IMG/VR virus record: IMGVR_UViG_3300042898_003434
Coordinates: 26,629-90,628 of that record
Direction: 5' to 3' (one strand)
Length of the DNA stretch: 64,000 nucleotides
Source of the DNA: a virus
Below, in pieces: positions 21,771-57,753 of this stretch. Below the pieces are notes generated by a model. It was not told the origin of the DNA, did no database searches, and worked only from the letters and a program-made list of their open reading frames with translations. Both the position numbers and the translations under genes were made by a program. The first letter of the stretch is position 1; every line of letters begins with the position of its first letter.

Positions 21771-21779
21771 ACACAGCTA

Positions 21780-34354: not shown

Positions 34355-34374
34355 GTGTTTTAACTTGCTAGTAA

Positions 34375-37362
34375 TTAGGCTCCTGGGAAGGTAGCGCCTG
34401 TTGGAAGAACCGAGAAGTCGAGAACGATGAATTCAGCGGTCTTGCTTGGTTTCAGATAAATTTGTCCGTATAGAATATTACGGTCAACTAGATCTGGTGT
34501 ATTGTTACTGTCATCCATTACAACCTTGAAGGCATACAAACCTGAGCGTTGTTGAACACCATCCAAGTATGGATTTACAATGTTCAAGAAGCGTTGGCGT
34601 GTTGATGCAACGTTTTGTTCGAATACTAGGTATCTCGAAGAAGAAGCGATGAACTTCTTCAACGCGATCAATAGACGACGCACGTTGATGCGATCCAATG
34701 CGGAAGGTTGACGTTGCAGGGTCTTTTGGCCCCATGCTACGATACCTTGACCTGGGAATGCGGCAATCGGATTAACTCTTCCTTCATATAGACTATCACG
34801 TTCCGAGTGTGTCAAGCGGTCGACTACTTGAACTGCGGCAGGAATACCACCACGGTTTAGACCGGCAGGAGCAAACCATTCAGCAGCTACTTGGTCGTTA
34901 GCGGCGAATACGCTCATCATAACAACCGAAGGAGGAACTGGAATTACTCTGTTAGAGTTTGTGTCAACAATCTTGACCCAAGGATAGTATGTGGCACCGT
35001 AGTTTGAATCGAACTGCGAAGCCATAGACACTACGTTTTCGATAGCGGCCGCGCCAGCAGTTTGGTTTGGAGCGATATCGAAGATATAGAATGCGTCGCC
35101 ACGGTTTTCACAAACTTCTAGTACCAATGATATTAGATATGGATTGTATTGATAGTTTAGACCGGGAGTTGTGATTAGATTAAAATCAAACTCGTCGGCG
35201 TTACTTAATGCAGCCATTGCTTGTCTGTATCCGTAAGAGCCACGTGAAACGTTCGTCGAGCAATTCAAGCCTTGTTGGTTAGTTGGGATGATATCATTGC
35301 CACTTAGTACTGGAACAGATGGGCTTTGACCATCGAATCCACCTTGGAAACCAAGAATGAAGCGGCGTTTCTTAACGTTTGTATTTTCTTGAGAAGCAAC
35401 GTAAACTGGACTTAGTCCGCAGTTATCTTCTAGACTGAATTCAACATTGTTGCCAACACTAGAACCGTATGGAACTGGGGCGAAGTATTGTTTGTTGTCT
35501 AGTTCAACACCGGCGGATGAACCGTTTGGATATAGAGCGGCTAGTTCAGCATCAGCTGTCGAAGGAGCCGGTTGGAACACGACGCCAGAAGCATAACGAC
35601 CGGGTTGCGCCGAGTAAATCGAAGCACTGGTGTATTGCATTACTGGAACCTTGCCCAAGCGAGCATAATCGCCACTGATTGGTGCAGCATATGCACCGAA
35701 GCCGAATGGAATTGCATCTACTGGCCATGGCGATGTTGCCATTTCAATGCGGATGTATTTACTGATATTGTTGTAATCACCGAATTGAAGAATCTTACCG
35801 TTGCTATCGATATATGTGAATACATCGCCGATACGACGAGCAATATAGTTTGCACTTGTTTCGTCTAGGTTTAGATTGTCGTAGCGTTCAATGACACTTG
35901 GCTTTGCGTCAGCGTCCGTGAATGAGCGTAGAGACAAGGTGAATGTTCCGTGTTTAGAACCTGGGATTGATCCGGCAGATTTTACGTTCGAGATTTCAAC
36001 TTTGAATTGAGTGTTTGTGTTTGTACCATCGGACAAGGTATGAACCTTAAACAAATCGTAAGAAGCTGCGGTTGGAGCACCAACCGATCCACTGAATGGA
36101 GCAACTTTTTGAGATTTGATGAATGGTGTTTCAGCTTGACGTAGGTCAAACAATGAATCGCCTTGGTCTGGTGTTACACCGTCAGCGAATACCATAGCAT
36201 TACGGCTAGATACTTCAATCTTCCAGCTACCAGAAACAATCATATCAGCAACGATTTCAGCAGCTTTGTTGTCGAAGTGTTTATAGCTATAAGCAGATTC
36301 AATCTTTTGACCGGATGCGACTGGGGTGAAGCCAGCTTCTGCATCAGTACCGAATACCGATGTGATATATGATGTACTTGTTGGGTCAATTGAGAATTCG
36401 TATGTGCCATATGAAGCGGATGCATAAACGCCCAAATCTAGATCGAAGTGAGTTTCGTTTAGTGCTAGTCTAAAGTCGGTTCCAACAACAGTTGCATTTT
36501 TTGCTGTTAGCACAGATCCACTGAAACCGTATAGGTTTTGACCACGGTCATATGCAGTGTTAGCTAGAACAGCCAATACAACTTCATCACGACCGGAAAC
36601 AGCAGAGCCACTTCCACAACCGTCTTCAGAAGAAACACTGTCGGCGGTCCAAGAACTAACATCGAATCTTCCGTAATCTCCGGTAACTTTTCCGGCGAAT
36701 GAGTATGTGTATCCACATGAACCAACTGCACCACGTGTGATGGTGGCTTGTAGTGTCAATGTATCAGATGGATTGTGTGGCAACAATGAGTTGGATAGAG
36801 AAGCAGTAATACTACCTCCCAATAGAGCAGAACCGGTATAAGTAACGTTGTCAACAGATGCACTGATTGCTCCGATTACTTGCGTAGAACCAACATAGTA
36901 TCCACTTAAGAAAGTAGCTAGTACAGATCCTTGTACGTTAAAGTTACCAGCAGAAATTTCTGTTACGGTAAATCCAACGCTGCTACCAGTAATTGAACCT
37001 GATTCTGTGAATCTATCATAAGCGCCCGGTATAGCCGAAACTATGAGAGCTTGGTCTTGTTCATATCCGCCCAAACCACCGACGCGGCAAACGGTCACTT
37101 GACCTTGCTGACGGATATATTGTTGGGCTGTGTATGGTCCATAAAGGACTCCGTCGGGTTCACCGAAGATTGCGTTAAGATCTGCCTCGCTTGTTACCGT
37201 TGTAGGTGCAAATCCCGGTCCTTTTGGGAAGGGAGCTACGACGACGCCGCCGATAGCTGCTACTCCTTGAGCGAGGAACGATTGATCGATTTCACGAGTG
37301 AATACGCCGGGACTGACGATTCTTTCGCTTGGTTGGAATGTGCCATTTTGTTCTAGTGCCAT
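34375..37362 (-). CDS. contractile tail sheath protein, T4 gp18-like
   Basis: 995 residues, versus about 660 for T4 gp18. N-terminus: ERIVSPGVFTREIDQSFLAQ, then GPGFAPTTVTSEADLNAIFG and LYGPYTAQQYIRQQGQVTVCR, the classic sheath opening. C-terminus: ERDSLYEGRVNPIAAFPGQG, WGQKTLQRQPSALDRINVRR, FEQNVASTRQRFLNIVNPYL and a final ILYGQIYLKPSKTAEFIVLD. Between them (about 120-600) lies an enlarged, Ser/Gly-rich beta region, probably domains on the outer surface of the tail. It contracts to drive the tube through the host envelope. The gene has the clearest ribosome site in the window, CAGGAGAAAA, 11 bases before ATG, as expected for an abundant protein. Confidence 0.95.
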   Translation of the reverse strand: MALEQNGTFQPSERIVSPGVFTREIDQSFLAQGVAAIGGVVVAPFPKGPGFAPTTVTSEADLNAIFGEPDGVLYGPYTAQQYIRQQGQVTVCRVGGLGGYEQDQALIVSAIPGAYDRFTESGSITGSSVGFTVTEISAGNFNVQGSVLATFLSGYYVGSTQVIGAISASVDNVTYTGSALLGGSITASLSNSLLPHNPSDTLTLQATITRGAVGSCGYTYSFAGKVTGDYGRFDVSSWTADSVSSEDGCGSGSAVSGRDEVVLAVLANTAYDRGQNLYGFSGSVLTAKNATVVGTDFRLALNETHFDLDLGVYASASYGTYEFSIDPTSTSYITSVFGTDAEAGFTPVASGQKIESAYSYKHFDNKAAEIVADMIVSGSWKIEVSSRNAMVFADGVTPDQGDSLFDLRQAETPFIKSQKVAPFSGSVGAPTAASYDLFKVHTLSDGTNTNTQFKVEISNVKSAGSIPGSKHGTFTLSLRSFTDADAKPSVIERYDNLNLDETSANYIARRIGDVFTYIDSNGKILQFGDYNNISKYIRIEMATSPWPVDAIPFGFGAYAAPISGDYARLGKVPVMQYTSASIYSAQPGRYASGVVFQPAPSTADAELAALYPNGSSAGVELDNKQYFAPVPYGSSVGNNVEFSLEDNCGLSPVYVASQENTNVKKRRFILGFQGGFDGQSPSVPVLSGNDIIPTNQQGLNCSTNVSRGSYGYRQAMAALSNADEFDFNLITTPGLNYQYNPYLISLVLEVCENRGDAFYIFDIAPNQTAGAAAIENVVSMASQFDSNYGATYYPWVKIVDTNSNRVIPVPPSVVMMSVFAANDQVAAEWFAPAGLNRGGIPAAVQVVDRLTHSERDSLYEGRVNPIAAFPGQGIVAWGQKTLQRQPSALDRINVRRLLIALKKFIASSSRYLVFEQNVASTRQRFLNIVNPYLDGVQQRSGLYAFKVVMDDSNNTPDLVDRNILYGQIYLKPSKTAEFIVLDFSVLPTGATFPGA

Positions 37363-37872: not shown

Positions 37873-38946
37873 TTAACTATGACTAAACAGTACGGTATGA
37901 GTTGTTGCGACGGTCTCGTTTGCAGAAAGAGCATAACCAATAATAGTTCCAGCTGGATTTCTTACTATCGTGTTATTAAATTGAGACCTTACTGGGGTTA
38001 TATCTCTTATTTTACCGGCAAATCTTAAATTGATGGAATCGTAACAAGGAATTGCTGTTTGCACTAGACTACCCGACCGTGTTAGAGAAGCGGATGTATA
38101 ATAACTAGAATTCGAAAGTCCACCCTTTGCAAAAGTATATAATGCATTACCTCTAGGCGTGAACATCACAAATTTGGGATATCCCAATGCATTTGTAGAT
38201 GTGGTTGTATCGTGAGACAAAAATGCTCCTGCGACGGCGGCGTTGTAGGTTGGTGTTAGGAAAGTAGTTGATATCGGCGTTGCTGTATTGGACGCTGTTC
38301 CAAACGCACATCCACTCGTTGCAACTCCATACAAGCGACCGTCTTGTTCCGAGTCAAACGAGGAAGTTATGCCTTCTGTTTCTGGATCTACAATAGCACC
38401 GGCAATTATACACGACGACGCGGTTATTGGACTGTATATGGATATCGCAATAGCTTCTTTAGACTCGTAAATAGATATTTTGCTCGCCGACGCATAATAA
38501 ACAGCATTAAAACCTTTAGCGTAACCGGTTGAATATGAACTTGATCCAAACGGAAATTGGCTGGTCCATTGTGTGAATGCTCCCGTTGCATTTTTTACGC
38601 ACGCAACATGCACGACCGATGAACTGAACGGAGCTTCATTTGTTACAACCGGCGGAATTGCTGCGCTAAAGGGCGCGGTAGAACTTTTTGTTGAAAAAAT
38701 AACAGATTGGCTCAAAAAAGTGTTCGGGCGAGGTGGACGGCAGTATACTGCTTCTACGTTGGAACCGGTTGTAAATCTTCCAGAAGCGCTCCATGCGCTG
38801 CCACTACCAATTACTCTGGCCGCGCCGTTGATATACAAAGAGCCTGTTAGCATGTCGTAAATTGTAGCTAACAAATAATTCGACGAGTACGACGCCGTTG
38901 GAATACGTACTGGTAATTTTCTCCATTCTAGTGCGGGTAAGCTCAT
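37873..38946 (-). CDS. tandem-array protein 8 (subfamily A)
   Basis: 357 residues, last of eight related genes in transcription order. Starts MSLPALEWRKLPVR, then IYDMLTGSLY, GSGSAWSASGRFTTGSNVEA, FTQWTSQFPFGSSSYSTGYA, YESKEAIAISIY, and DGRLYGVATSG; the end is VLFSHS. Of the two subfamilies, this one has SAWSASxxFTTGSN and CRPP. No signal peptide, membrane segment or enzyme motif is visible; composition is Ser/Thr/Ala-rich and beta-like, suiting an exposed virion protein. Closest by eye to 40234-41280. Function unknown; likely a tail or capsid decoration or adhesin. Its stop is followed by the hairpin at 37825-37844. Confidence 0.8.
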   Translation of the reverse strand: MSLPALEWRKLPVRIPTASYSSNYLLATIYDMLTGSLYINGAARVIGSGSAWSASGRFTTGSNVEAVYCRPPRPNTFLSQSVIFSTKSSTAPFSAAIPPVVTNEAPFSSSVVHVACVKNATGAFTQWTSQFPFGSSSYSTGYAKGFNAVYYASASKISIYESKEAIAISIYSPITASSCIIAGAIVDPETEGITSSFDSEQDGRLYGVATSGCAFGTASNTATPISTTFLTPTYNAAVAGAFLSHDTTTSTNALGYPKFVMFTPRGNALYTFAKGGLSNSSYYTSASLTRSGSLVQTAIPCYDSINLRFAGKIRDITPVRSQFNNTIVRNPAGTIIGYALSANETVATTHTVLFSHS

Positions 38947-38952
38947 AAATTT

Positions 38953-39996
38953 TTACGAATAGTTTAATAGTAATGCGGCACTCGCCGAAATATCCGAAGA
39001 ACCCACAGTATAACCAAGAACACCGTTTGATTCATTTTTGATAACTGTATTAGACGGCAGTGCCGTTATCCACGACATATCTCGCAAGCTTCCAAGAAAA
39101 TTGAAACTTCCAGAATTTGTACAATACATTGTTGTTCTTACATATCTTCCGGAGTATGTTGTTGTGGATGCAAAATTCACAATTGGAGTTGATGGTTTTA
39201 TTACGGCAACTGGTAATATTGATCCTGTTTGTGGAACTAGAACAACAAATCTTGGTGGAGAAACGCTCGCAGCATTTTGCGTTGTCGCGTGAGTAAGAAA
39301 TGCGGCATTGTTTGTCCAAAAATTAGGCCCAACTGTATAAGTTCCACTTGTAGAAACTCCACTCGTTGCTACACCATATAGTCTACCGTCGAGTTCCGCA
39401 TCAACGGATGTTACGCTTTGTTCTGGATCTATAATAGAACCCAATAAAATTATGTTTGTGCTATTTACGGCTGGATTATATACTACACCGGCCAATGCTT
39501 CTCTTGATTCGTATACCGTAAATCTAGATCCGGCACTAAGCAAACTTAATCTAAACCACTGTGCGTACTTTGCAGAAACAGAACCGGAACCAAATGGAAA
39601 CAAGCTGGTCCATTGTGTGAATGCAGCGGCGTCAGCGCCCTTAACACATGTACCAAATACTAGGTCTGTTGCATATGCACCTTCGTTTGTTATAACTTGT
39701 GGCACTGCGCTGCTGGATGCACCGGTTATACTTCTTGCAGAAAAAATAATAGATTGACTCATTATTGTTTTTGTTGGCGGAAAACAATATACCGCTTCTG
39801 TGTTTGATCCAGTTACAAACTTCGTAACTTGTTGCCAAGCACTATCGACACCAGCAGTTCTTGCTGTTCCATCATAGTATGAAGAACCAGTGAGCATATC
39901 ATGTATGGTATCCAACAAATACGATGATGTAATTGTTGCACTAAATGGTATTGCTCTAGTTGGTAATCTTCTCCACTGTAATGCTTGTAAACTCAT
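38953..39996 (-). CDS. tandem-array protein 7 (subfamily B)
   Basis: 347 residues. MSLQALQWRRLPTR, TIHDMLTGSSYYDG, then QQVTKFVTGSNTEAVYCFPP of subfamily B, followed by FTQWTSLFPFGSGSVSAKYA, YESREALAGVVY, IDPEQSVTSVDAELDGRLYG and VLLNYS-like end. A 57-base stretch of its gene (39776-39832) is identical to part of 45437-45493 in the 44605-45651 gene, about 5.7 kb away, although the rest of the two is well diverged; this suggests recombination between copies. The small gene 40015-40224 lies between it and the next member upstream. Confidence 0.8.
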   Translation of the reverse strand: MSLQALQWRRLPTRAIPFSATITSSYLLDTIHDMLTGSSYYDGTARTAGVDSAWQQVTKFVTGSNTEAVYCFPPTKTIMSQSIIFSARSITGASSSAVPQVITNEGAYATDLVFGTCVKGADAAAFTQWTSLFPFGSGSVSAKYAQWFRLSLLSAGSRFTVYESREALAGVVYNPAVNSTNIILLGSIIDPEQSVTSVDAELDGRLYGVATSGVSTSGTYTVGPNFWTNNAAFLTHATTQNAASVSPPRFVVLVPQTGSILPVAVIKPSTPIVNFASTTTYSGRYVRTTMYCTNSGSFNFLGSLRDMSWITALPSNTVIKNESNGVLGYTVGSSDISASAALLLNYS

Positions 39997-40014
39997 TTAT
40001 TTTTTATATAATTG

Positions 40015-40224
40015 TTAGATTATTCTAGCTGACATCATGATGGTTAAACAATTACCATCTGCGTCGTATGCAACCATGCTTTCGCCGTCATGTCCCGATA
40101 ACTGCACATTTTCTGGTTTTGTAAAATCATGGGTGAGCCAATAGTTTGGTATAACCATAGACGCAACGGAGTTTTCTCCAACCGAATTGATGCAACTTTG
40201 TATTTGGTCTTCTATTATTTTCAT
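40015..40224 (-). CDS. small hypothetical protein within the array
   Basis: 69 residues, unrelated to the array proteins by eye. Alpha/beta look: an initial helix (IIEDQIQSCINSVGE), then SMVIPNYWLTHDF, and MVAYDADGNCLTIMMSARII. Not recognised. It has 18 bases of gap to the preceding member and 9 to the next. Possibly an insertion that became fixed or a regulator of the array; nothing in the sequence decides. Confidence 0.55.
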   Translation of the reverse strand: MKIIEDQIQSCINSVGENSVASMVIPNYWLTHDFTKPENVQLSGHDGESMVAYDADGNCLTIMMSARII

Positions 40225-40233
40225 ATAAATTTA

Positions 40234-41280
40234 TTATGTGTAATTTAATAGCACTGCGTGTGTAGCTGAAACTTCACTTGCTCCTAATGTAAATCCCTTT
40301 ATATTATTTGAGCTATCTCTCATTATTCGATTTGTCGGGGCACCTTTTACGATTGTGACATCTCGCAATCTACCAACAAAATAATCATATGGTATTTGGA
40401 GAGCGCTCAAAACATATATCGGATTTTGAACAGTTTTTCCGCTGAATGTTGTATATGTAGGGCCATATGTAGTTGTATTAGGTCTCTTTGTAAACGCGGC
40501 GAGTATAGAGTTTTTTTGCGGAAAGAATGTTACAAATCTAGGAAATCCACTTGTGGTTGTATTCAAACTGGAGGCATGTGTAAGAAATTGATTTGTTCCC
40601 GATAAAAACGAAGCGCCGAATGAAGTTGGCGTTTGTGTAGAAACTCCGCTACTAATTACTCCATACAATCGACCGTCGGCTTCTGAATCTGCCGATGAAG
40701 TAGGATTTGCTTCTTCCGGATCTATGATTGCTCCTGCAAAAATTGCTTGAGATAAATTACTTTGCGTGTTTAAAAAATTTATACATAGTACTTCTTTAGA
40801 TTCATAAACGGCCATTCTAGTATACGATGTAAAAATATTTGTTGCTCTAGCATACCCAGTTGAATAAGAACTCGATCCAAACGGGAATTGACTGGTCCAC
40901 TGTGTAAATCCTCCGGATGCATTTTTTACGCACGCGACGTGAAGAACGGATGCGCTATAGGCACTTTCGTTTGTTACAACCGGTGGTGTTGCACTACTGA
41001 AAGGAGCCAATGCATTTTTTGCAGAAAAAATAACAGATTGACTTAAGATTGTGTTTATCGGTGGGCGACAATAAACCGCTTCTACGTTAGAACCGGTTGT
41101 AAATTTTCCGGATGCACTCCATGCGCTACCACTGTTGATTACTCTGGCAGAACCATCGTGATACAACGACCCAGTCAATACGTCGTATATATTTTCCAAT
41201 ATAAAGTTTGCACTAAATGACGCCGTTACACTTAAGTGACGCACTGGTAATTTTCTCCATTCTAGTGTGGGCAAGCTCAT
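40234..41280 (-). CDS. tandem-array protein 6 (subfamily A)
   Basis: 348 residues. MSLPTLEWRKLPVRHLSVTA, NIYDVLTGSLYHDG, GSAWSASGKFTTGSNVEAVY with CRPP, FTQWTSQFPFGSSSYSTGYA, YESKEVLCINFL, IDPEEANPTSSADSEADGRL, VGRLRDVTIVKGAPTNRIMR, end LLNYT. All main blocks are present, with variable loops in between. Codon and GC usage look like its neighbours. Closest by eye to 37873-38946. No enzyme motif. Confidence 0.8.
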   Translation of the reverse strand: MSLPTLEWRKLPVRHLSVTASFSANFILENIYDVLTGSLYHDGSARVINSGSAWSASGKFTTGSNVEAVYCRPPINTILSQSVIFSAKNALAPFSSATPPVVTNESAYSASVLHVACVKNASGGFTQWTSQFPFGSSSYSTGYARATNIFTSYTRMAVYESKEVLCINFLNTQSNLSQAIFAGAIIDPEEANPTSSADSEADGRLYGVISSGVSTQTPTSFGASFLSGTNQFLTHASSLNTTTSGFPRFVTFFPQKNSILAAFTKRPNTTTYGPTYTTFSGKTVQNPIYVLSALQIPYDYFVGRLRDVTIVKGAPTNRIMRDSSNNIKGFTLGASEVSATHAVLLNYT

Positions 41281-41302
41281 AAATTTTTAAATATTTAAAA
41301 TC

Positions 41303-42397
41303 TTAGTTATATGGTAGACATACCGCTGACACGTTTGTTGCTGGGAGCGTATATTCATCTGCTGCAATCGCATATCCGATAGTATTATTTGATTCATCCG
41401 TTATAACTTGGTTTAATAAAAATGGTTTTACACTGTTTATATCACGAAGTCTTCCCAAATAATAATTATTTGTTTTTCCGGTACATTTTATCGGAATCTG
41501 AACAACTTTTTCTGAAAACGATGGGTAAGCTATTGTAGTACTGTTTGTTTTTTCCGCCATGATCGTAAACGTAGAGTTTTGCTGTGGAGTAAATCCAACG
41601 AATCTCGGATAATGCGCTGCGGCACCAGCGGCAGTTGTGCTGTGACTAAACAAAGAACCTGAATTTACCGCTGCTGTATCTGCGGAGAATGACATGAAAT
41701 TTGGATTTAATCCTGAAACTTTCGATCCATCAGTCGCGCTTGCGCCAGACGTTGCTATTGCATACAATCTACCATCGACTTCCGCGTCTATACTTGTTGA
41801 TGTTTGTTCTGGGTCAATAATAGCGCCAGCCACGACCGCATGACAATATGCAGTCGTAAATGACACGATTACCGCCATAGCTTCTTTCGACTCGTATATA
41901 ATAATTTTTGAGTTATAGTTTACAGGAAATTCAAAAGAATAACACTTGGTCAACGGTACATAACCAGTGGAATATGAACTTGAGCCGAATGGATGTAAAC
42001 TTGTCCATTGAGTAAACGATTCAGACTTTGCTAATTTTACACTTGTCATCAATATATCACGTCCTGTTATAGTAAAGTCTGGAGTATCACCATTTGTTAC
42101 AAGAGGAACGGCGGCGCTACTAGACGCACCGATGTAATTTTTACCAGCAAAAATAATAGATTGACTCATTTCTGTATCAGTCGGTGGGAAGGTATAAACC
42201 GCTTCCGTATTTGAACCAGTAACAAATTTTGTTGTATTTTTCCAAGCACTATCGGACCCTATTACTCTGGGCGACCCGTCGTAATATAAGGATCCGGTCA
42301 GCATGTCATATATAGTATCCAAGAAATAGCTAGTAGTCGTTTGTCCTGATACCGTTCTGCCCGGTAGTCTTCTCCATTGTAATGGTGGTAATGCCAT
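41303..42397 (-). CDS. tandem-array protein 5 (subfamily B)
   Basis: 364 residues. MALPPLQWRRLPGRTVSGQT, TIYDMLTGSLYYDG, TTKFVTGSNTEAVYTFPPTD, FTQWTSLHPFGSSSYSTGY, YESKEAMAVIV, IDPEQTSTSIDAEVDGRLYA, LGRLRDINSVKPFL, end LPYN. One longer loop near 100-125 (DTPDFTITGRDILMTSVK) sets it apart. Ser/Thr/Ala-rich, no signal or membrane segment. Confidence 0.8.
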   Translation of the reverse strand: MALPPLQWRRLPGRTVSGQTTTSYFLDTIYDMLTGSLYYDGSPRVIGSDSAWKNTTKFVTGSNTEAVYTFPPTDTEMSQSIIFAGKNYIGASSSAAVPLVTNGDTPDFTITGRDILMTSVKLAKSESFTQWTSLHPFGSSSYSTGYVPLTKCYSFEFPVNYNSKIIIYESKEAMAVIVSFTTAYCHAVVAGAIIDPEQTSTSIDAEVDGRLYAIATSGASATDGSKVSGLNPNFMSFSADTAAVNSGSLFSHSTTAAGAAAHYPRFVGFTPQQNSTFTIMAEKTNSTTIAYPSFSEKVVQIPIKCTGKTNNYYLGRLRDINSVKPFLLNQVITDESNNTIGYAIAADEYTLPATNVSAVCLPYN

Positions 42398-42422
42398 AAA
42401 ATTTTAAATTGATTTAATAATA

Positions 42423-43508
42423 TTAATTATACGAAAACAACGCAGTATTACCGGCTAATACTGTATTTTCTGAGTATGCCAAGGTAAATCCGGCAATATT
42501 GTTTTCGCTATCTCTAATATTTTGATTTGATGGGATTGCTCGTGTAATATTAATATCTCGTAATCTACCCAGATAATAATTTGTATTGGCACTACCGGAT
42601 ACTCCGCATAATATAGAATTTTGAATTAATCTTCCGCTGAGTGTGGTATAGCTAACAAAGTATGGATTATGTCCGGTTATATTACTAAAATTTGTTTTTT
42701 GAGACATGATGCGCATCGTTGCTTGTTGTCGTGGATAAAATCCGACAAATCTAGCATACCCGAACGTTGTGGCACTTGCCTCGGTTCGATGTGTAAACAA
42801 ACTGCCAGATGCAGATCCGCCCTCAATAACAAATCGTGGCGCTAACCCAGATCCAGATGTAACCCCGACCCCAGAAGTTGCAAGTGCATATATTCTACCA
42901 TCATTTTCTGCATCAATAGAGTCTGCATTTTGTTCTGGGTCTATTATGGCCCCACCGATCCCACAATGAACAATAAAATTAGTAGCAGGATTTGCGAACA
43001 TAACCGCAATCGCTTCTTTTGACTCGTATACAGTTATTCTTTCCCCTCCCGACATATGCGCCGTCCCAGCAATTTTTCCATATCCAGTGGAATAAGAGCC
43101 GGATCCAAACGGATGTCGACTCGTCCATTCCGTAAAAGGTCCGGATGCATCCTTTACACACGCCATGTAAATATACGATGCGCTATAAGTTTCATCTGCG
43201 CACATAACCGGCGTTGCACTGCTTGATGCACCAAAATGATTTATTGCACCAAATATAATAGACTGACTCATCACGGTATATAATGGTGGCCGACAAACAA
43301 CGGCTTCCGTATTTGAACCAGTAGTAAATTTTATAGATGCACTCCATGCGCTGCCACTACCGAGTATTCTTGTCGAGTTGTCATAATAAACAGATCCCGT
43401 GAGCATATCATATAAAGTATCCAAAACGAAAGATGCCGTAAATAAACCTGTGGTATACGGAAACTTTCTTATTGGCAATTTTCTCCACTGGAGTGATGGT
43501 AAGCTCAT
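42423..43508 (-). CDS. tandem-array protein 4 (subfamily A)
   Basis: 361 residues. MSLPSLQWRKLPIRKF, LYDMLTGSVYYDN, GSAWSASIKFTTGSNTEAVV with CRPP, FTEWTSRHPFGSGSYSTGY, YESKEAIAVMFA, IDPEQNADSIDAENDGRIYA, LGRLRDINITRAIPSNQNIR, end LFSYN. Blends A features (SAWSAS, CRPP) with B-like loop text, suggesting mixing between subfamilies. Length variation is concentrated in the loops. Confidence 0.8.
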   Translation of the reverse strand: MSLPSLQWRKLPIRKFPYTTGLFTASFVLDTLYDMLTGSVYYDNSTRILGSGSAWSASIKFTTGSNTEAVVCRPPLYTVMSQSIIFGAINHFGASSSATPVMCADETYSASYIYMACVKDASGPFTEWTSRHPFGSGSYSTGYGKIAGTAHMSGGERITVYESKEAIAVMFANPATNFIVHCGIGGAIIDPEQNADSIDAENDGRIYALATSGVGVTSGSGLAPRFVIEGGSASGSLFTHRTEASATTFGYARFVGFYPRQQATMRIMSQKTNFSNITGHNPYFVSYTTLSGRLIQNSILCGVSGSANTNYYLGRLRDINITRAIPSNQNIRDSENNIAGFTLAYSENTVLAGNTALFSYN

Positions 43509-43521
43509 AAAGTTTATTCTA

Positions 43522-44601
43522 TTATTGATGTCTGAAAATTACAGTGTCACCCGAAGTAACCTCGCTGAAGGAAAGAGCATATCCAATCAGCGTACCGTCA
43601 AAGTCTGTAAGTATATTATCAAAAGGAACTTTTGTTGCAATTGAAATATCGCGCAGTCTTCCCATATAAAATGGAAATGTTTGTGATCCTGCGGTACTGA
43701 TATAGCATTTTAGTGGGGAAGTAACCAATTTTCCAGACAAAGTTCTGTAAGTAATCATTGCATCGGTTCTTAATTTATCTGTACTTATTCCGTATAAGGT
43801 GTTTGTATTTGGTAAAAATACACCGAACTTTCCGACCGCACTGGTAGCGGCGGGTGCATTGGCACTATATGACAAAAATGAACTGTCTGAGTTATTGGCG
43901 GATAAAAAATTAGATGTAACGGCAGCCGGAGTTGGAGTATTTTGTGGTATAGACGACCCGACGAGTCCGTATAGTCTGCCATCGGCTTCCGCGTCAAAGG
44001 ATGAAGTTGGCAAACTTTGTTCCGGATCTATAATTGCACCCGCAATCGTTGCTACCACGCACGGAACGCTTGTGTAATAATGCATAAACGCTATAGCTTC
44101 TTTGGATTCGTATATTACAAATTTAGACCCAAACATATTTGCGTTCAATGCGGCTGCCGACCTAACAAACCCAGTGGAATAAGAACTTGATCCAAACGGG
44201 AATTGACTGGTCCATTGCGTGAATGATCCCGTTGCATTTTTTACAAATGCCATATGAACAGTCGGAACCGTGGTCGAAGGCGCACTATCATTCAGCATGC
44301 TTGGTGCGACGGCAGTACTAACTGGTCCACTGGCATTTTTTCCCGCGAATATGATAGACTGACTGATGCTAGTCAACGTCGGTGGATAACACCAAATCGC
44401 CTCTGTATTTGATCCTGTCGCGAACTTTCCAGAGGCACTCCACGCGCTACCACTACCAACTACTCTCTCAGCTCCATTGTAATAGACCGATCCAGTTAAC
44501 ATGTCATATATTGTATCTAATGCAGCGCTGACAGATATTGTCGCGGATTGTATGTTTCTAACAGGTAACTTTCTCCATTCAACTGGTGGTAATAGTGCCA
44601 T
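43522..44601 (-). CDS. tandem-array protein 3 (subfamily A)
   Basis: 359 residues. MALLPPVEWRKLPVRNIQ, TIYDMLTGSVYYNG, GSAWSASGKFATGSNTEAIW with CYPP, FTQWTSQFPFGSSSYSTGF, YESKEAIAFMHY, IDPEQSLPTSSFDAEADGRL, MGRLRDISIATKVP, end VIFRHQ. The fourth and fifth blocks of its DNA are very close to those of 40234-41280 and 37873-38946 (for example the FTQWTSQFPFGSSSYSTG block). Four bases follow before the next gene (44605). Confidence 0.8.
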   Translation of the reverse strand: MALLPPVEWRKLPVRNIQSATISVSAALDTIYDMLTGSVYYNGAERVVGSGSAWSASGKFATGSNTEAIWCYPPTLTSISQSIIFAGKNASGPVSTAVAPSMLNDSAPSTTVPTVHMAFVKNATGSFTQWTSQFPFGSSSYSTGFVRSAAALNANMFGSKFVIYESKEAIAFMHYYTSVPCVVATIAGAIIDPEQSLPTSSFDAEADGRLYGLVGSSIPQNTPTPAAVTSNFLSANNSDSSFLSYSANAPAATSAVGKFGVFLPNTNTLYGISTDKLRTDAMITYRTLSGKLVTSPLKCYISTAGSQTFPFYMGRLRDISIATKVPFDNILTDFDGTLIGYALSFSEVTSGDTVIFRHQ

Positions 44602-44604
44602 AAA

Positions 44605-45651
44605 TTAAGCGTATTTTAACAATACGGAGTTGTTTGCGCCGTTTTCGTTTGCACCAAGAGTGAACCCAGCAATTGCACCGGTATTATTGTCTCGAATGAC
44701 ATAATTTGTTGGTGCATTTTTCATCATGGTTATATCGCGAAGTCTTCCTAAATAAGAAGTGGAAACACCATCGTCGAATCTTGCGCATTTTAGTGCCGTA
44801 TTGACAAATTTCCCAGAGTTTGTCGTGTATCTAATACTTGGTGCCAATCCAACAGAGTGCTTGTCTATTGTAACACCCATTGTAAATCTTTCACCCGGTT
44901 TGAATACAACAAATCTCGCTGTATCGCCGTTTTGTGCGGTAGCAACTGTATTTTGTTGCGATAAAAATGAAGTATTATTAGCAAAAAAGGTCGTCGATAT
45001 TCCTGCTGCTGGACAATTTGCTAGTCCATACAGTCTACCATCGACTTCTGCGTCAAAGGATGAAGTTGGTAAGCTTTGTTCTGGATCAATAATTGCACCG
45101 GCAATAACGCCGTTTGTTATAGCAGTTGCTGGTCTATAAAAAGTAACAGCGATAGCTTCTTTAGACTCGTAGATTGTTATTTTATCCGTCACGTTGTATA
45201 AACTCGTTGCCAAAGATATTTGCGTATACCCAGTTGAAAAAGAACCTGTGCCAAATGGAAATGCACTGGTCCATTGTGTGAATGAAGCAGATGCTGCATT
45301 TTTGGCAAGTGTGGCGTGTAAAAAGCCCGGAAACGGCACTGTTTCTAAACTTGCAGTTGGTGCTGCGGCGGAAGACGATGGTGCAGATGTTTGTCTACCG
45401 GCAAATATCACAGACATGCTCATTTCTGTGGAGACAGGCGGAAAACAATATACCGCTTCTGTGTTTGATCCAGTTACAAACTTCGTAACTTGTCGCCAAG
45501 CACTGCCGCTACCAATGTTTCTGGTCGATCCATCGAAATATACGGAGCCTGTTAGCATATCGTATATAGTATTTAACATTGTGCTGGCCGACTGCGATAC
45601 CTGCAAGGTACGAGTTGGTAATTTTCTCCATTCTAGTGGTTGTAAGCTCAT
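44605..45651 (-). CDS. tandem-array protein 2 (subfamily B)
   Basis: 348 residues. MSLQPLEWRKLPTRTL, TIYDMLTGSVYFDG, WRQVTKFVTGSNTEAVYCFP, FTQWTSAFPFGTGSFSTGY, YESKEAIAVTFY, IDPEQSLPTSSFDAEVDGRL, LGRLRDITMMKNAP, end LLKYA. It shares a 57-base identical block (45437-45493) with 38953-39996. Some plus-strand open frames across it are shadows. Confidence 0.8.
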   Translation of the reverse strand: MSLQPLEWRKLPTRTLQVSQSASTMLNTIYDMLTGSVYFDGSTRNIGSGSAWRQVTKFVTGSNTEAVYCFPPVSTEMSMSVIFAGRQTSAPSSSAAAPTASLETVPFPGFLHATLAKNAASASFTQWTSAFPFGTGSFSTGYTQISLATSLYNVTDKITIYESKEAIAVTFYRPATAITNGVIAGAIIDPEQSLPTSSFDAEVDGRLYGLANCPAAGISTTFFANNTSFLSQQNTVATAQNGDTARFVVFKPGERFTMGVTIDKHSVGLAPSIRYTTNSGKFVNTALKCARFDDGVSTSYLGRLRDITMMKNAPTNYVIRDNNTGAIAGFTLGANENGANNSVLLKYA

Positions 45652-45692
45652 AAGTATATATATTTGGTTGGAGTATTAAAAAAAGTATTATC

Positions 45693-46799
45693 TTAAGAAT
45701 AATTTAATAAAATCGCATTGCTTTGAGTGGTTTGTGATGATGCTATTGTATATCCAAGGAATTTGCCAACATACTCATCGCGTATGACTTGATTGTCAAA
45801 ATCATCTCTTATTACCGATATATCGCGCAGTCTGCCGACATAATTTTGAGGCTCTGTAAAATTTTGGTAACTTTTCTTTGCGCATTTTACGGGAGTCGAT
45901 ACAAACTTACCGGATAGTCTAACATAATTTGGACCGACCGTCCAGCTTGAAGGAGTTGTAAACTGAGTTGATAGTTTTTCGCCGCCACATGGCATAGTAA
46001 ATCTACTGCTTGGTAAAAACATATAGAATTTTGGACCATCCCAAACTGCGCCCATATCCGCTGTGATGGTTTCGAATAAACAACTGGTAAAGGTAGGGTT
46101 CCCAACACCCTCATGATTATGATGCATTCTCGGACCTATACCAGTAGCACCGGACAATCCAGCAACTCCATATAATCTACCATCTGCTTCCGCGTCAAGA
46201 GACGATGTTGGTGTACTTTGTTCTGGATCTATAATTGCTCCGCCAAAAAATGGATAACTTCCTGAGAGTGGCAATGCCGTATCATACATCGTTAGTGCAA
46301 TAGCTTCTTTAGATTCGTAGATTGTTAATTTATCATATAATCCAAACACACTGGCACTTGGACCTATCTTGATATATCCTGTAGAATTTGAACTTGAGCC
46401 AAATGGATAATAACTTGTCCACTGAGAAAACGATGATGATTCTGCGCCTTTGACACATGCTCCATACAATAAACCGCCAACGATTGTATTTTCTCTACTA
46501 GCAGTTGCAGCAGCAAACGTTGTGGATGTACCTGATGTTGCTTTACCAGCAAATATAACAGACATGCTCATTTCTGTTTTTGTTGGAGGAAAACAAAAAA
46601 CAGCTTCTGTATTTGATCCTGTAACAAACTTTGTTACTCCATACCAAGCACTACCAGTGCCGGGGATTCTTGTCGTATTGTCATGATACACCGACCCTGT
46701 CAACATATCGTGTATGGTGTCTAACAAAGAATTTGCCGATTGAGAAACTTGTAGTACTCTCACTGGTAATTTTCGCCATTCTAATGCTGGTAAACTCAT
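45693..46799 (-). CDS. tandem-array protein 1 (subfamily B)
   Basis: 368 residues, the longest and first transcribed member. MSLPALEWRKLPVRVL, TIHDMLTGSVYHDN, YGVTKFVTGSNTEAVFCFPP, SFSQWTSYYPFGSSSNSTGY, YESKEAIALTMY, IDPEQSTPTSSLDAEADGRL, VGRLRDISVIRDDF, end LLNYS. A longer loop near 210-300 includes HHNHEGVGNP, not found in the others. Its neighbour upstream is a TASY-repeat fibre protein (46817-47497), 17 bases away. Confidence 0.8.
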   Translation of the reverse strand: MSLPALEWRKLPVRVLQVSQSANSLLDTIHDMLTGSVYHDNTTRIPGTGSAWYGVTKFVTGSNTEAVFCFPPTKTEMSMSVIFAGKATSGTSTTFAAATASRENTIVGGLLYGACVKGAESSSFSQWTSYYPFGSSSNSTGYIKIGPSASVFGLYDKLTIYESKEAIALTMYDTALPLSGSYPFFGGAIIDPEQSTPTSSLDAEADGRLYGVAGLSGATGIGPRMHHNHEGVGNPTFTSCLFETITADMGAVWDGPKFYMFLPSSRFTMPCGGEKLSTQFTTPSSWTVGPNYVRLSGKFVSTPVKCAKKSYQNFTEPQNYVGRLRDISVIRDDFDNQVIRDEYVGKFLGYTIASSQTTQSNAILLNYS

Positions 46800-46816: not shown

Positions 46817-47497
46817 TTATACGGACGCGGTTGTATAAGACCGTGCGGTAAATTTCGGTAGTAACGACGATGTTACAGATATAACAGTGTCTATATATTC
46901 AAACGTTTCTACTATTTGGTTAGATTCCATAGAGCTGCTTATATTGGTCTGAATCTCAATGGTCTCTAATTGGGCGGAATCAAACCTAGTAATTGCGGTT
47001 GACCCCGTAACATCTAGATACGGACTATCAGAATAATAAGCATCGCTTGCAAACGAACTACTTGGAAACGCAAAATTTGCACCTATTTGCACAGGAACCA
47101 TGTCTTCGTCGCTAGTAAACGAAGAACTTGGAAATGCAAAATTTGAACCTGACTGAACAAACAAATATTCGTTATCACTGAAAATTTCAGCGTATGTAGC
47201 AAAGTTACCTGTTCCACCCGCCGTTGTGATTGGAATCCATACAATTGCACCATCTTGAATAGCAACGTATGTATTGTTTGTGGTAGGAGTTGAAAATATT
47301 GGCTTGCCATTGGTATCAAATGCAGCAATCGATTGAGCACTAGCAGTAAAACTGCTTGACGACCACAATCCACTTGCATTTATAGCATAAGACGATGATA
47401 TTGCATACGAAGCTGTTCCAGACAATGAAGCTGTAGCAGAAACCAATATCATTCGGCTTCCACTTATGATGCTTTTAAATATGCTTAGTTTGTCCAT
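46817..47497 (-). CDS. TASY-repeat virion protein with internal duplication
   Basis: 226 residues. N-terminal part (about 15-90) shares SLSGTASYAISSSYAINASG and FDTNGKP with the next gene upstream (47506-47835). Residues about 120-160 contain NFAFPSSSF twice, 25-30 residues apart, a small duplication. Beta-like and Ser/Thr-rich with a short TASY pattern of the neighbouring fibres. Probably an adaptor or small fibre subunit. Confidence 0.65.
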   Translation of the reverse strand: MDKLSIFKSIISGSRMILVSATASLSGTASYAISSSYAINASGLWSSSSFTASAQSIAAFDTNGKPIFSTPTTNNTYVAIQDGAIVWIPITTAGGTGNFATYAEIFSDNEYLFVQSGSNFAFPSSSFTSDEDMVPVQIGANFAFPSSSFASDAYYSDSPYLDVTGSTAITRFDSAQLETIEIQTNISSSMESNQIVETFEYIDTVISVTSSLLPKFTARSYTTASV

Positions 47498-47505
47498 ACG
47501 GATTG

Positions 47506-47835
47506 TTACATATAACTATTATAAGTGTGTGTAAAATTGGATACTATTGGGATTATAGAAAATAAAATCCATTGAATCTGTCCGTCACTATATGTTAGTC
47601 GGCTTTGGTTTTGAGCGGATGAATATAAAACAGGTTTACCGGAGGTATCAAACCCAGCAACGGCTGGATCTATCGCCGGTGTAGTAAACTTACTTGCACT
47701 CCAGTATCCCGTCGCATTTACGGCATATGAAGATGATATAGCATACGATGCTGTGCCGGATAATGAAGCTGTGATACTGATTAATCTAGCTTCACTTCCA
47801 CTAATTGGATGCAAGAATTGTACATATTTTAACAT
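47506..47835 (-). CDS. small TASY-repeat protein, shorter paralog of the next gene
   Basis: 109 residues. SITASLSGTASYAISSSYAV with WSASKFTTPA and FDTSGKP matches the first 90 residues of 46817-47497; the remainder of that protein is absent here, so this is a shorter version or a truncated copy. Possibly an attachment module for fibres. The start MLKYVQFLHPISG differs. It starts 3 bases after the stop of the 516-residue fibre gene. Confidence 0.6.
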   Translation of the reverse strand: MLKYVQFLHPISGSEARLISITASLSGTASYAISSSYAVNATGYWSASKFTTPAIDPAVAGFDTSGKPVLYSSAQNQSRLTYSDGQIQWILFSIIPIVSNFTHTYNSYM

Positions 47836-47838
47836 TTT

Positions 47839-49389
47839 TTATAAATCATATACCGCGTTCAATGTAACATTTCCGACTGTTACCGAATTATCATTTGAAG
47901 CGTCGCCGCCATTGGTGACCAATCTTAATGTTACAATTTGTTTTGCATCCGATACTATTGCTACTCTGTCACCAAGCTTAGAACCGACTGAATCCATAGC
48001 CACCGACGGTAAGTTTGCTGGATTTGCTGATAGGTAATACCAAAGAGAATCATCAACTGAATATTGCACAGACAAACTGCAAGTAACAGATGTTGGACCA
48101 GTGGCTTCCTTTTCTATGGTTAGAGACAAACTACAAGATGCCACGTCTGTTAAATCTGCACGAACATAAACTTCGCTACCAAAATCTGTGGTTTCATATG
48201 GTATACCAACAAGTGATGTAATTTGGTCTGAACTTGCAATAATCGGTATAGAATTTACTATCTTTTTTCCTATGCGTATTGCGTATGACGCACTTTCGAT
48301 AGATCCTAGTAGATATGATGCTGTTTTTGCATTTAATGCATATGACGCGCTGTCTATTGTACCAAGCAAGAATGATGCTGTAACTGCATTGTTTGCCCAA
48401 CTGCTGGTTATGTTTTGAGTTGATCCGCTTTCAAGTGCAAACAGAGTATAAGAAGCTGTGTTTGCAAAAACTGAATATGACGAACTAACGGCATACGATG
48501 CAGTTTCTGGAACATTTAATGCAAATGACGATGTCAATGCTTCTAGTGCATATGAAGCCGTATATGAATATGATGCAGTTTCTGGAACATTAGACGCATA
48601 TGATGCGGTTAATGCATACGAGGCAGACGCCACATTGTTTGCATATGATGCTGTACCAACAAACGTGTCGGTTGTAGACTCGGCAATGTTTGCCCACGCA
48701 ATATATGACGCCGTCGCAGAAATATTTGAATAGGACGATGTTCCTGCAAACGCCGATGCTGTAGTAATATCAGTAACTGCGCTGTATGGAATAGATACCG
48801 CCGCAAGTGCTGTGTTAGCAAATGACGCTGTACCTGCAAATATAGACAAACTTGATATGTCTGTTATTCCACTATAAACAACACTGGTAGCAGTTTCCGC
48901 GTTAATTGCATACGACGCTGTACCGAGAAATGTATCGGCTGTAGTTTCATCAACATTTGCCCATGCTATATAAGATGCTGTTTTTGCCGTGGTAGCATAC
49001 GACGCTGTACCAGCAAACGAAGAGCTTGGATTTATATCTTGTATGTTCGTATAGCTGACATACGAAGCTGTTTGAGAAATTGATATATACGACGCGGTAT
49101 CGGAATATGCAGAAACCGATGAACTTTTTGCCAACAACACATACGACGCCGTATTTGCTATTTCAACATAAGAAGCCGTGCTAGAATTTAATGCATATGA
49201 CGACGTACCGGCAAACGAAGAACTCGGTGTTGAATTTTTTACATTACTATAATCAACATAAGAAGCCGTGTATGCAGTATTAGAAACTGCTGCATATGCA
49301 GCACTGTCAGCAACATCTGCTTTTTGTGAATATGAAGCAGATTCGATGCTAGTACCTCTAACGTTTAGTGACTTTAATGTAATTGACAT
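47839..49389 (-). CDS. TASY-repeat fibre protein
   Basis: 516 residues. Residues 20-365 are a long run of loosely repeated units of about 9 residues around TASY(A/V) (for example NTASYVLLAK, SQTASYVSYT, GTASYATTAK), with interspersed FAGTSSYA-type units every 25-30 residues. The last 140 residues (IPIIASSDQITSLVGIPYET onward) form a distinct beta domain with LSLTIEKEATGPTSVTCSLS. Such repeats build extended trimeric fibres in several phages. A TATAAATA copy lies at 49394-49401, 5 bases before the ATG. The gap 49390-49499 is AT-rich with no gene. Confidence 0.75.
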   Translation of the reverse strand: MSITLKSLNVRGTSIESASYSQKADVADSAAYAAVSNTAYTASYVDYSNVKNSTPSSSFAGTSSYALNSSTASYVEIANTASYVLLAKSSSVSAYSDTASYISISQTASYVSYTNIQDINPSSSFAGTASYATTAKTASYIAWANVDETTADTFLGTASYAINAETATSVVYSGITDISSLSIFAGTASFANTALAAVSIPYSAVTDITTASAFAGTSSYSNISATASYIAWANIAESTTDTFVGTASYANNVASASYALTASYASNVPETASYSYTASYALEALTSSFALNVPETASYAVSSSYSVFANTASYTLFALESGSTQNITSSWANNAVTASFLLGTIDSASYALNAKTASYLLGSIESASYAIRIGKKIVNSIPIIASSDQITSLVGIPYETTDFGSEVYVRADLTDVASCSLSLTIEKEATGPTSVTCSLSVQYSVDDSLWYYLSANPANLPSVAMDSVGSKLGDRVAIVSDAKQIVTLRLVTNGGDASNDNSVTVGNVTLNAVYDL

Positions 49390-49499: not shown

Positions 49500-52400
49500 T
49501 CATAAGCGATTTTGAAATTGACGTTTATATGGTGTAAACGGGCCTATATATCTGCAAAAATCGTTGGTATAACGGAATTCGTCCATATATCCGTGGAAAT
49601 ACGAATATGAATCTGTGTCGCCTATAGCATACATGGTTCTGGTATTGGAGGCGACTCGCGCTCCGTTCGCCACCGCCGCAAAAATTCCGTTTCCATACGT
49701 TACATTCTGGAAGGTAGTATCTGCGGGTGTGACCATTGCATTCCAAACTATACCATCTTTTGATACAATTACTGTTTTGTTTGTTGAATTTAGTGCATAC
49801 CCAACTGGATACTCACTGTATCCAACCGCAACAAACAACCCGCCTCCGTATGTTATACCAGTAAAAACGACATACACCGGTGAGGCGCGGAAAGTCCAAT
49901 CAATGCCGTCGGGGGAGGTTGCAATCTGATTGGTTCCGTCGGCAGAAACCGCAACAAAAAGTCCATTTCCATATGCCACACTGGTCCAAAAGTTTCCACT
50001 ACGTGCGGAAGAAGTTGTCCAATTTTGGCCATCCGGCGAAGTCATGAACAAACCACTACCGGTCCCAACTGCGACAAATTTTCCATCGCCATAAGTTATT
50101 TCTCTCCAATTATTATTATACGCGCTACTTGAAATCCAAGTAATCCCATCCGTCGAGCTAATTGTTTTAGAATTATTACCAACTGCGACGAATTTTCCAC
50201 TGCCATACGCGACAGAATTCCAACTACCCGTGAATGCCGTGCGATACGTCCAATCGACCGATCCGCTCGAAGTCATAACAGCGTTGGTTCCACTCGAAGC
50301 AACTGCCACAAATAACCCGTTTCCGTATGTTACAGATTGCCATTGCTCGCTTGCAATTATGGGTAATAAAGTCCAAGCAATTCCGTCCGTAGAATTCATA
50401 ACTCTGTATGTTCCACTGCTGGCTACCGCGACAAAAAATCCTCCTCCGTAGGTTACACCTGTCCAACCCGACCCAGTTGTAAACCCGTTTGATCCAGCTT
50501 TCCAAATCATATTTGAATTCTGACCAACGTAGCCTTGCAATCCAAACGATGCAAAACTTCCGCTGATCGAAGGGGACGTTGGGAAAATACTTGCTGTAGA
50601 AATTTTTCCAACCGGAGTTCCGTTTATGAAAAGCGTCAAATTTGATGACGTAGCTGATGTGGATGCCGCTATATGCGTCCATGATCCTGTTGCAACCGAT
50701 ATTGAACTGGTACTAGCATAACTGGAACTAGTATTCTTGTTTGTTATTTTCAATTTTCCGTTTGTTTCAATCCCAAAAATAAAACCGGAATTTCCAGAAT
50801 CTCCTGTACTATATATTGGCGTATATTTACTAATAGAAACTGGATATACCCAAGACTCAATCGTAAACACACTACCTTGATTTTTACTAGCGGTGATGTG
50901 CGATGGCCAATCTTTTGAGTATGCATATGAAGAGCTTCCATTAAAGAACAAGCTTCCGAATCCGACCTTTTTAACCACAGTAGAAACATCTATATTTCTC
51001 GTTATTAGACTGTTCATTCCCACATAATCATATACTTTAGAATTATTTCCCGTCACTAGCAGCTGCGTGTCTGATGACGCCGTCAACGGAGAAGTTGGAA
51101 CAGACGGGATATATGCTCCACTTGTTATTCTAAAATCTGACATATATCCGTCAAATGGACCAATTGTACTCTGACCAGTCAATTGTTCACTGTTTGTAAA
51201 CGTGGCCAACGAACTACCGTCCATGTATACGGTGCACAAGCTGGAAGTAGATCTTGAAAGTGCTATATGATGCCATGCGTTCGGCTTAATTGAAAATAGT
51301 CCGACCTTCAACGGAACGGACCCAGAAGAAGAACCCAATCTATAATCCAAATAAATATCCGCTCGACTTCCTGTACCGGCCAAGTAATAATAGTTTGGGC
51401 TGGACACATTGTCCACGTTTCTGTAGGCCATATACAACGAACTTGTAGATGATCCGCTAACAAACACACTGTCTAAAAATGAGTTTGAATTAAACCAAAA
51501 TTCTATTGTAAAAGCACTGCCGGAATCAACGACTAAAAATGGGTTATTTGTCGATACGTATGCATTTGATTTTTCTGAATAAATACTGGATCCATGAATC
51601 ACCGGTGAATATGACGCGGTCGGGGCATCCAGCGGATTCCCGTAAAAATTGGTTTTTAATTTTGTCGCGGTATTGTCCAAACTAAATGCAAAGTTTGTCG
51701 AGCCGCCGCCGCCTAATGTTAGACTTCCAGTTTTAAGCGAGTCTCTAAAATCTTCACCCGCTGCAATCAAAAATGCCGTGTTTTGTATTCGCTGTAGTGT
51801 TTTTTGTGGTGGGGTGAAGCTTGCTGTATACAATATGCTTCCGGTGACAAGTCTGAAGTTTGAGATATAACCCTCCCATTTTTTAAAAGTTTCACTGCCA
51901 ATGGCTAAATAATCAGATGCATCCCAGACGCTACCAGATCTATATACATTGGCTCTACTGGCGCTTGAATCAAATCGGCCATTTACATATATATTAACAA
52001 AACTCTGCGCGGCAACGGAATGAGAGTTGTGTGTTATTGCATAGTGATTCCAAGTGTTTACAGGCGACTCGATTGTACCATTCGTAAGAAAAACATTTGA
52101 TGCGCCGTTTGAAATCGTAAGATACGTTTTGCGGTTGATAATTGTTGATACTGGATAAAAAGAAAAATCAAGTGTTTTGATTGGTCCTTGGTTGCTGGCC
52201 GTGGCCGCGTAACACCAAAATTCCATTGTCCAATCATGGTAACCATTTGTGATAGCTCTCACAGCCGGATATCTGGTTGCATTGTATACAAATTCCTCTC
52301 CGATGGATCCGCTTCTAAACTTTTGTGCCCACAACACGGTTCTATATGGGCTTTCGGAGCCTTGAATTAGGCCGTATGATGATGTGTTATTTACCGACAG

Positions 52401-57087: not shown

Positions 57088-57753
57088 TTATAATCGGTAC
57101 CTTGACTTAAACGAGGTGTAACTCTGTAAAATCTCGGCGTTGGTCAAAATTCTGTTATACATTTTAACCATTCCAAACCTTCCATTACCATACGAACCAC
57201 CGGAACTATATGTCGCGCCTATTCTAAAGTTACCTGTTCCGGCATATTGACTTTGAGTTTGTTGCTCTGTACCTGTCAATTTTTGACCGTTTCTGAAAAG
57301 TTGCTTTCCATAGGGACTACTGTGACTGTATGTAAAAGTATAATGGTACCATGTATTTGCAGCCGTGGTTAATGTTGTAGCGTCGGTGTCGTTTCCGAAC
57401 ATGCCGAACTTTATACCGGTCGTACCAATGTTTTGAATATGCAATCCGAGACTGTTACTTGGTGTACCTTGGCCAAAAAATGAAAAATTATTAACTGTCG
57501 TCATATTGACCCAGCATTCTAATGTAAACGTTTGTCTAAAGTCGATAGTTGTTATATCAACATATTCGTTTACGCCATCCATTAATATACTAGAACTAAC
57601 AAATGTTGGAGCGTTGACCAAAGAACCACTGTTTCCGTTTTTACTTATGTCAGTCCATATTGAACTCCCACTGACGTAACTTTTAGTATTGGCAGCGTCA
57701 AGACAAAAAATAAGTCCGTTTGTTTCTGTTTTTGGTCCACGTCGTGTGCTCAT
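57088..57753 (-). CDS. LamG/concanavalin-like lectin domain protein
   Basis: 221 residues, nearly all one LamG-like jelly-roll. Typical strands: GLIFCLDAANTKSYVSGSSI at the start, MDGVNEYVDI, FTLECWVNM, WYHYTFTYS, FRNGQKLTGT, and GMVKMYNRILTNAEILQSY at the end. Such domains bind glycans or act as spacer domains in phage fibres. It precedes the terminator at 57058-57079 and follows the 1396-residue fibre gene after 29 bases. Three similar domains lie within the giant adhesin (49500-54914). Confidence 0.85.
   Translation of the reverse strand: MSTRRGPKTETNGLIFCLDAANTKSYVSGSSIWTDISKNGNSGSLVNAPTFVSSSILMDGVNEYVDITTIDFRQTFTLECWVNMTTVNNFSFFGQGTPSNSLGLHIQNIGTTGIKFGMFGNDTDATTLTTAANTWYHYTFTYSHSSPYGKQLFRNGQKLTGTEQQTQSQYAGTGNFRIGATYSSGGSYGNGRFGMVKMYNRILTNAEILQSYTSFKSRYRL

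Follow-up and report, generated by a model that had tools for sequence, protein, structure and literature searches.

An array of eight tandem paralogous genes beside the tail sheath gene of a contractile phage, with a predicted fold like that of the JBD30 tail-fibre subunits gp47 and gp48

The analysed DNA is part of the 90,628-base IMG/VR virus record IMGVR_UViG_3300042898_003434. Bases 26629-90628 of this record, 64,000 nucleotides in all, are referred to here as the window, and positions are those of the window unless stated otherwise. From 37873 to 46799, eight intact and uninterrupted open reading frames (ORFs) follow one another on the minus strand, each with an ATG start and encoding 347 to 368 amino acids. 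They were named along the direction of transcription, from P8 as the first to P1 as the last: P8 (45693..46799, 368 aa), which opens the array, P7 (44605..45651, 348 aa), P6 (43522..44601, 359 aa), P5 (42423..43508, 361 aa), P4 (41303..42397, 364 aa), P3 (40234..41280, 348 aa), P2 (38953..39996, 347 aa) and P1 (37873..38946, 357 aa), the final array gene before the sheath gene. Most spacers measure 3 to 41 bp. The sole large gap, 237 bp between P3 and P2, contains a 69-aa ORF on the same strand (40015..40224), whose reading frame is open and conserved in the related locus L009 described below. With one array member as query, the other seven are found at E values of 1e-62 to 1e-88 and 41-51% identity, and the search gave no further family copy beyond the eight in the 90.6 kb record. 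Pairwise identity among the eight proteins is 40-54%, with 60-odd invariant columns in their full-length alignment. Scans for promoters and terminators within the array gave no excess over shuffled sequence. The proteins are high in Ser/Thr/Ala.

The original prediction, made from the DNA letters, described eight paralogs in a row, two interleaved subfamilies (A and B) and conserved blocks alternating with variable ones. All eight ORFs are present and homologous, but the row is not gap-free, given the 237-bp interval and its small ORF. The alternation is borne out by the mean column entropy, which is low (0.6-1.0 bits) at residues 1-80, 121-140 and 201-220 and high (1.6-2.1 bits) at residues 101-120, 141-160 and 221-300. 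The two subfamilies are not recovered by the trees. Both trees join P7 with P8 (100/96 and 98/98) and P4 with P5 (88/91 and 86/92), the latter being a B with an A member. P1 and P3 are joined in one tree only (97/93) and unresolved in the other, while P2 and P6 group with no other array member. An AU test rejected neither an all-A clade (p=0.17) nor an all-B clade (p=0.11). Probably, the impression of two subfamilies came from a short segment around residue 52 that is dimorphic, being either of the SAWSAS or of the SAWxxVT type, and is kept in the orthologs. Across 53 non-redundant family members, R46, E165, D192, E205, D207, G208, Y211 and R317 (P6 numbering) are essentially invariant. Judging from conservation, the charged residues of this set could form a structural or metal site.

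Downstream of the array, the gene at 34375..37362 (minus strand) encodes a tail sheath protein of 995 aa (PHROG 23, E 5e-75; Pfam PF04984/PF17482), indicating that the phage has a contractile tail. Directly upstream, also on the minus strand, are genes for a 226-aa protein (46817..47497) and a 109-aa protein (47506..47835), which carry the same fibre-type repeat GTASYAISSSYA. Their L009 orthologs are 86% and 90% identical, respectively, that of the 226-aa protein being found in the same place. Next on this strand come a 516-aa protein (47839..49389) consisting largely of GTASYA-type fibre repeats and a 1804-aa tail protein (49500..54914) with three Laminin_G_3 (ConA-like lectin) stretches and a Gly-rich domain. 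The latter matches Pfam PF13385 (E 9e-27) and PF21722 (E 2e-18) as well as virion structural and tail fibre PHROGs. They are followed by a 545-aa fibre protein with GTASYA repeats (55306..56943, minus strand) and a 221-aa, lectin-like Laminin_G_3 protein (57088..57753, minus strand; Pfam PF13385, E 1e-18). T4-type baseplate proteins are encoded at 20850-22616. The tail location and the fibre and lectin neighbours support a role of the array in surface adhesion.

Searches of Pfam, PHROGs and PDB sequences yielded nothing above noise for the eight array proteins or for 37 family members. Similarly, tblastn with an array member and two distant relatives found no match in 50,697 INPHARED phage records. 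The phages with the nearest sheath are Microcystis phage Mel-JY01, Flavobacterium phage immuto and LR756508, an uncultured phage of 484 kb, and no family member was present in their sheath regions. The array was also considered as the target of a diversity-generating retroelement and this was discarded, as RVT_1 had no match within the 90.6 kb of the record, which is possibly a fragment. In the literature, a search for arrays of tandem tail-fibre paralogs retrieved nothing on point.

Next, an AlphaFold2 model of P6 was built with 37 family sequences, reaching a pLDDT of 86.5 and a pTM of 0.90. When this model was compared to 350,542 PDB chains using Foldseek, 8rk3_G was the sole match at E<=0.001 (1.1e-5, prob 1.00), followed by 8rk3_K (4.9e-3, prob 1.00); the later hits listed have a prob of at most 0.41. 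Entry 8rk3 is the baseplate of phage JBD30. The two chains have 305 and 317 residues, and the JBD30 gene table gives 307 aa for gp48 and 318 aa for gp47; based on chain length, 8rk3_G would be gp48 and 8rk3_K gp47. A second model covered P7 and P6 together, with the stop codon of P7 read through. Again, 8rk3_G and 8rk3_K came out on top (2.1e-4 and 7.9e-3), the next hit having a prob of 0.03, and over the two models the probabilities of these chains are 0.99-1.00. TM-scores to the 8rk3 chains are moderate (0.45-0.57, with an rmsd of about 7, and 0.42-0.57 by target length). The pTM of the read-through model is 0.76, from few paired rows and with a two-residue linker that forces proximity; as the contact is imposed by the linker, the model gives a hint that these neighbours may pack in a defined way. 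In the BFVD, Foldseek found 12 phage proteins at E<=0.001, of which the named ones are uncharacterised or ‘virion structural’ and, identified by length, include KL1_00022 and FoX4 gp30.

On the sequence level, hhalign of the array family against the gp47/gp48 family did not reach significance (E 0.07-0.3), also when the family was represented by 53 diverse members, while gp47 and gp48 match each other at 4e-16. Most of the weak profile matches share one C-terminal motif and are at best suggestive, and the array proteins gave no hit to PHROG 687, the gp47/gp48 family. Since no profile match is significant, a homology between the array and gp47/gp48 would be read from the fold. In the predicted models, the array proteins do share the gp47/gp48 fold, so that their building block is related by fold to a tail-fibre subunit already known and is not a new category. 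The original prediction recognised no known domain and proposed a structure prediction of one member with comparison to known folds. The first point stands for sequence (Pfam, PHROG and PDB sequence) but not for fold, as the proposed comparison gave the chain assigned to JBD30 gp48 as top match.

In JBD30, three gp47-gp48 heterodimers alternate in each of three lateral fibres (PMC11445458). The two proteins are similar in fold, and the lateral fibre forms the interface embracing the type IV pilus (PMC11445458). Their genes are adjacent in the JBD30 genome. The pair (PDB 8rk3; PHROG 687) and the array have in common a beta-rich fold of ~310 residues, adjacent paralogous genes and a tail or baseplate setting. 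However, JBD30 is a siphophage with two such genes, located directly after the tape measure gene, whereas the contractile phage has eight, flanked by fibre/LamG genes on one side and the sheath gene on the other. In addition, the set of invariant residues is different and there is no significant sequence similarity. Tandem pairs of the gp47/gp48 type were observed in the same slot of the other siphophages examined, always as a pair. According to PMC11946847, phage Lydia has the same two-protein arrangement (gp67/gp68), with similar folds and proposed type IV pilus binding. The YuA/MP1412-like phages, to which the Lydia pair belongs, and KL1/FoX4-type phages are alike in having tandem pairs in this slot; KL1_00022 and FoX4 gp30 occupy it after the tape measure gene, one member of each pair matching the array fold model. 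In sequence, no similarity of these pairs to the array is detectable.

A larger set is found in Bacillus phage G, a giant phage in which gp371-gp373 are three tandem paralogs (pairwise E 1e-29 to 1e-52) of array-like fold, gp371 being a BFVD fold hit (E 1.6e-4). In contrast to the array, there are three copies of 280-290 aa, with a sequence link to the gp47 profile (E 6e-5) and not to the array family. Taken together, the pairs in siphophages and the triplet in phage G indicate that tandem sets of this fold recur across phage lineages. The long tail fibres and adhesins of T4 (gp34-37/38) are alike in serving a contractile phage that attaches via baseplate-borne fibres. However, these are trimeric, fibrous and non-paralogous, whereas the array proteins are predicted to be globular and have no match among the T4 fibre families.

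A survey of copy number in related genomes had been proposed as well. A first scan of metagenomic virus contigs retrieved L009, L010 and four distant relatives, and scans with wider queries enlarged the family to 69 loci in metagenomic virus contigs. Sixty-one of these have one copy, six have two and two, the window and L009, have eight. These counts are lower bounds, as most loci extend ~5-10 kb on each side and contig ends truncate some of them; at L010, the tail end of a second family member lies just upstream. Distant relatives have as neighbours fibres of the collagen-like or repeat type, LamG proteins, or genes for baseplate-type or capsid proteins. By our reading of the sequences, the downstream neighbour at L034 is a gp25-like baseplate protein, and the family member at L021, L022 and L025 is near the major capsid gene. 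The expansion would have lost its structural interpretation if close relatives had a single copy with a known non-structural function. The distant relatives are indeed mostly single-copy, but their settings are tail/fibre or capsid genes, with no non-structural sign, and the nearest relative keeps eight.

This nearest relative, L009, has all eight array genes in the same order, each one-to-one with its window counterpart (100/99-100 support). The ortholog of P1 (L009:10001-11074) has 82% amino acid identity and a dN/dS of 0.08. For P2 to P8, the identities are 86, 79, 79, 74, 56, 83 and 82%, respectively, giving 74-86% for all array pairs except P6 (56%), compared to 94% for the sheath. Between the window and L009, dN/dS of the array pairs ranges from 0.08 to 0.21, and their dN is 3- to 11-fold above that of the sheath, with P6, the fastest diverging member, highest. 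The dS is about 2 for P6, 0.6-1.3 for the other array members and 0.26 for the sheath; the raised value of P6 may reflect that a diverged allele was exchanged locally. No gene conversion or swapping between array members was seen in the comparison of the window with L009. Based on the eight one-to-one orthologs in the same order, the array is older than the split of these phages and all members have been retained. The orthology, gene order and dN/dS values favour members that are specialised rather than redundant.

Based on the array itself, its fold match, its tail/fibre neighbourhood and the one-to-one conservation of all eight members in a second phage, we consider with moderate confidence that the proteins are fixed, specialised subunits of a hetero-oligomeric tail (baseplate) arm used by a freshwater T4-like phage for host attachment. 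By analogy to gp47/gp48, the eight genes would encode globular, beta-rich subunits of one baseplate appendage of this contractile phage. We infer that the paralogs are present in the virion and assemble with each other in one arm, each at its own position. This arm of paralog beads would project from the baseplate, with conserved faces holding adjoining beads together and variable surface loops touching a host structure such as a pilus, another filament or a surface glycan in a first, reversible attachment. Within this explanation, a single ordered arm with eight diverged JBD30-fold paralogs at fixed places, i.e. a hetero-octamer, is a tentative proposal. SD-like sites precede 4 of the 39 genes of the window. 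Scarce SD-like sites fit a Bacteroidota or cyanobacterial host, suggesting that the host belongs to e.g. Bacteroidota or Cyanobacteria, and for this reason a type IV pilus receptor is not assumed.

Receptor-binding variants and a hetero-oligomer of related subunits were both named in the original prediction, and both persist as the leading explanations. The match to gp47 and gp48, which alternate as paralogous subunits, favours the hetero-oligomer by analogy, and the gene context supports surface adhesion. In other phages, the family is mostly represented by one copy, and hence a hetero-oligomer is not general to it. These single-copy relatives also imply that a lone member can function, as would be needed if the eight were separate receptor-binding adhesins, each forming its own homo-oligomer on different fibres or for different host strains and thereby widening or buffering the host range. 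The variable blocks between conserved ones, the LamG lectin and fibre neighbours, and the array dN, 3- to 11-fold faster than that of the sheath and most so for P6, are in line with such adhesins. However, all eight are kept one-to-one and in order in L009 under purifying selection, with no swapping or gene conversion seen, the record contains no reverse transcriptase of a diversity-generating retroelement, and the solved fold relatives alternate within one fibre and are not independent tips. Overall, separate adhesins are somewhat unlikely.

Fixed subunits of a baseplate arm were also weighed against a decoration of the head, neck or sheath (whiskers or a collar) with non-specific adhesion to mucus or particles and not to a particular receptor. 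Jumbo phages covered with whiskers exist, and the location of the family member near the major capsid gene in L021, L022 and L025 and the Ser/Thr/Ala content fit this possibility. Nevertheless, the JBD30-type relatives are located at the baseplate, the neighbour of the L034 member resembles a gp25-type baseplate protein by our reading, and the array of the window is between fibre genes and the sheath gene, not beside capsid genes, making such a decoration improbable. The residues R46, E165, D192, E205, D207 and R317, essentially invariant across the 53 members and conceivably part of an active or metal site, and the classification of gp47 with the nitrilase superfamily (PMC11445458) might point to a tail-borne polysaccharide depolymerase or hydrolase in eight substrate variants. 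This is highly improbable, as neither the sequence nor the fold comparisons matched an enzyme family, the top fold match gp48 is not assignable to one (PMC11445458) and these residues could equally be a structural salt-bridge or Ca2+ site. The proteins might also be non-virion, e.g. factors for assembly or host takeover whose genes happened to be amplified close to those of the tail. Of the explanations, this is the most remote, as the fold and the gene neighbourhood, both here and in numerous unrelated phage contigs, indicate the tail of the virion.

With the fold match, an environmental phage family that is widespread (over 60 loci in metagenomic viruses) and blank by sequence obtains a structural identity. 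Unusual are the eight fixed, diverged paralogs in contractile phages, compared to two or three in the described relatives, which suggests that the pilus-gripping fibre design of small Pseudomonas phages is found, enlarged, in large contractile phages. If the ordered hetero-octamer is true, the two-subunit, pilus-embracing fibre of siphophages has been extended to an eight-part arm in T4-like phages. If the paralogs co-assemble, they would offer a natural series for the path from homo-oligomer to ordered hetero-oligomer via gene duplication, and show how attachment specificity divides among subunits. A further fold hit is present in Acidovorax phage ACP17, where the neighbours of the gene are not detectable paralogs; by length, it is the gene at 33321-34484 of that phage, and annotated baseplate genes of the gp25/gp6 type lie a few genes further downstream.

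Identified by its length, one of the BFVD predicted structures that match the array-member model by fold is a 387-aa protein without annotation from the T4-like Acidovorax phage ACP17 (L051:33321-34484), and gp25/gp6-type baseplate genes are located a few genes downstream of its gene. In several distant relatives, a conserved 118-aa protein family is encoded upstream of the array-family member (L014:5058-5411, L018:689-1081, L019:4668-5021, L020:3594-3956 and L024:3210-3566); this family is not present in the window.

Small minus-strand ORFs are found both beside and inside the array. A 96-aa ORF (37506-37796), with mostly charged residues, lies between P1, the last paralog in transcription order, and the tail sheath gene. 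When compared with L009, a related phage locus carrying all eight array genes in the same order, this ORF is near-identical, its conservation being far above that of the array genes. Its product is probably a coiled-coil. The gap between P3 and P2 holds a 69-aa ORF (40015-40224), which is kept in L009. Based on sequence, four proteins encoded on the minus strand at 46817-49389 and 55306-56943 are composed of repeats of the GTASYA(L/I)xASYA type and probably form fibre shafts of intertwined chains; the repeats make up the bulk of one of them, a protein of 516 aa.

A PHROG search matched a 456-aa C-terminal-type piece of a DNA polymerase (10720-12090, minus strand), while the next large ORF upstream (766 aa; 12512-14812, minus strand) gave no match in this search. 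The DNA polymerase of the window may be split or very diverged.

Among the 39 gene starts in the window, a Shine-Dalgarno-like motif precedes only four, and the starts are A/T-rich (A at -5, T at -9 and -1). Together, these features hint at a Bacteroidota or cyanobacterial host. Near the sheath gene, homing-endonuclease-like genes are present at 28128-29714 (plus strand) and 33497-34249 (minus strand), the former being the larger and among the few plus-strand genes in the window.
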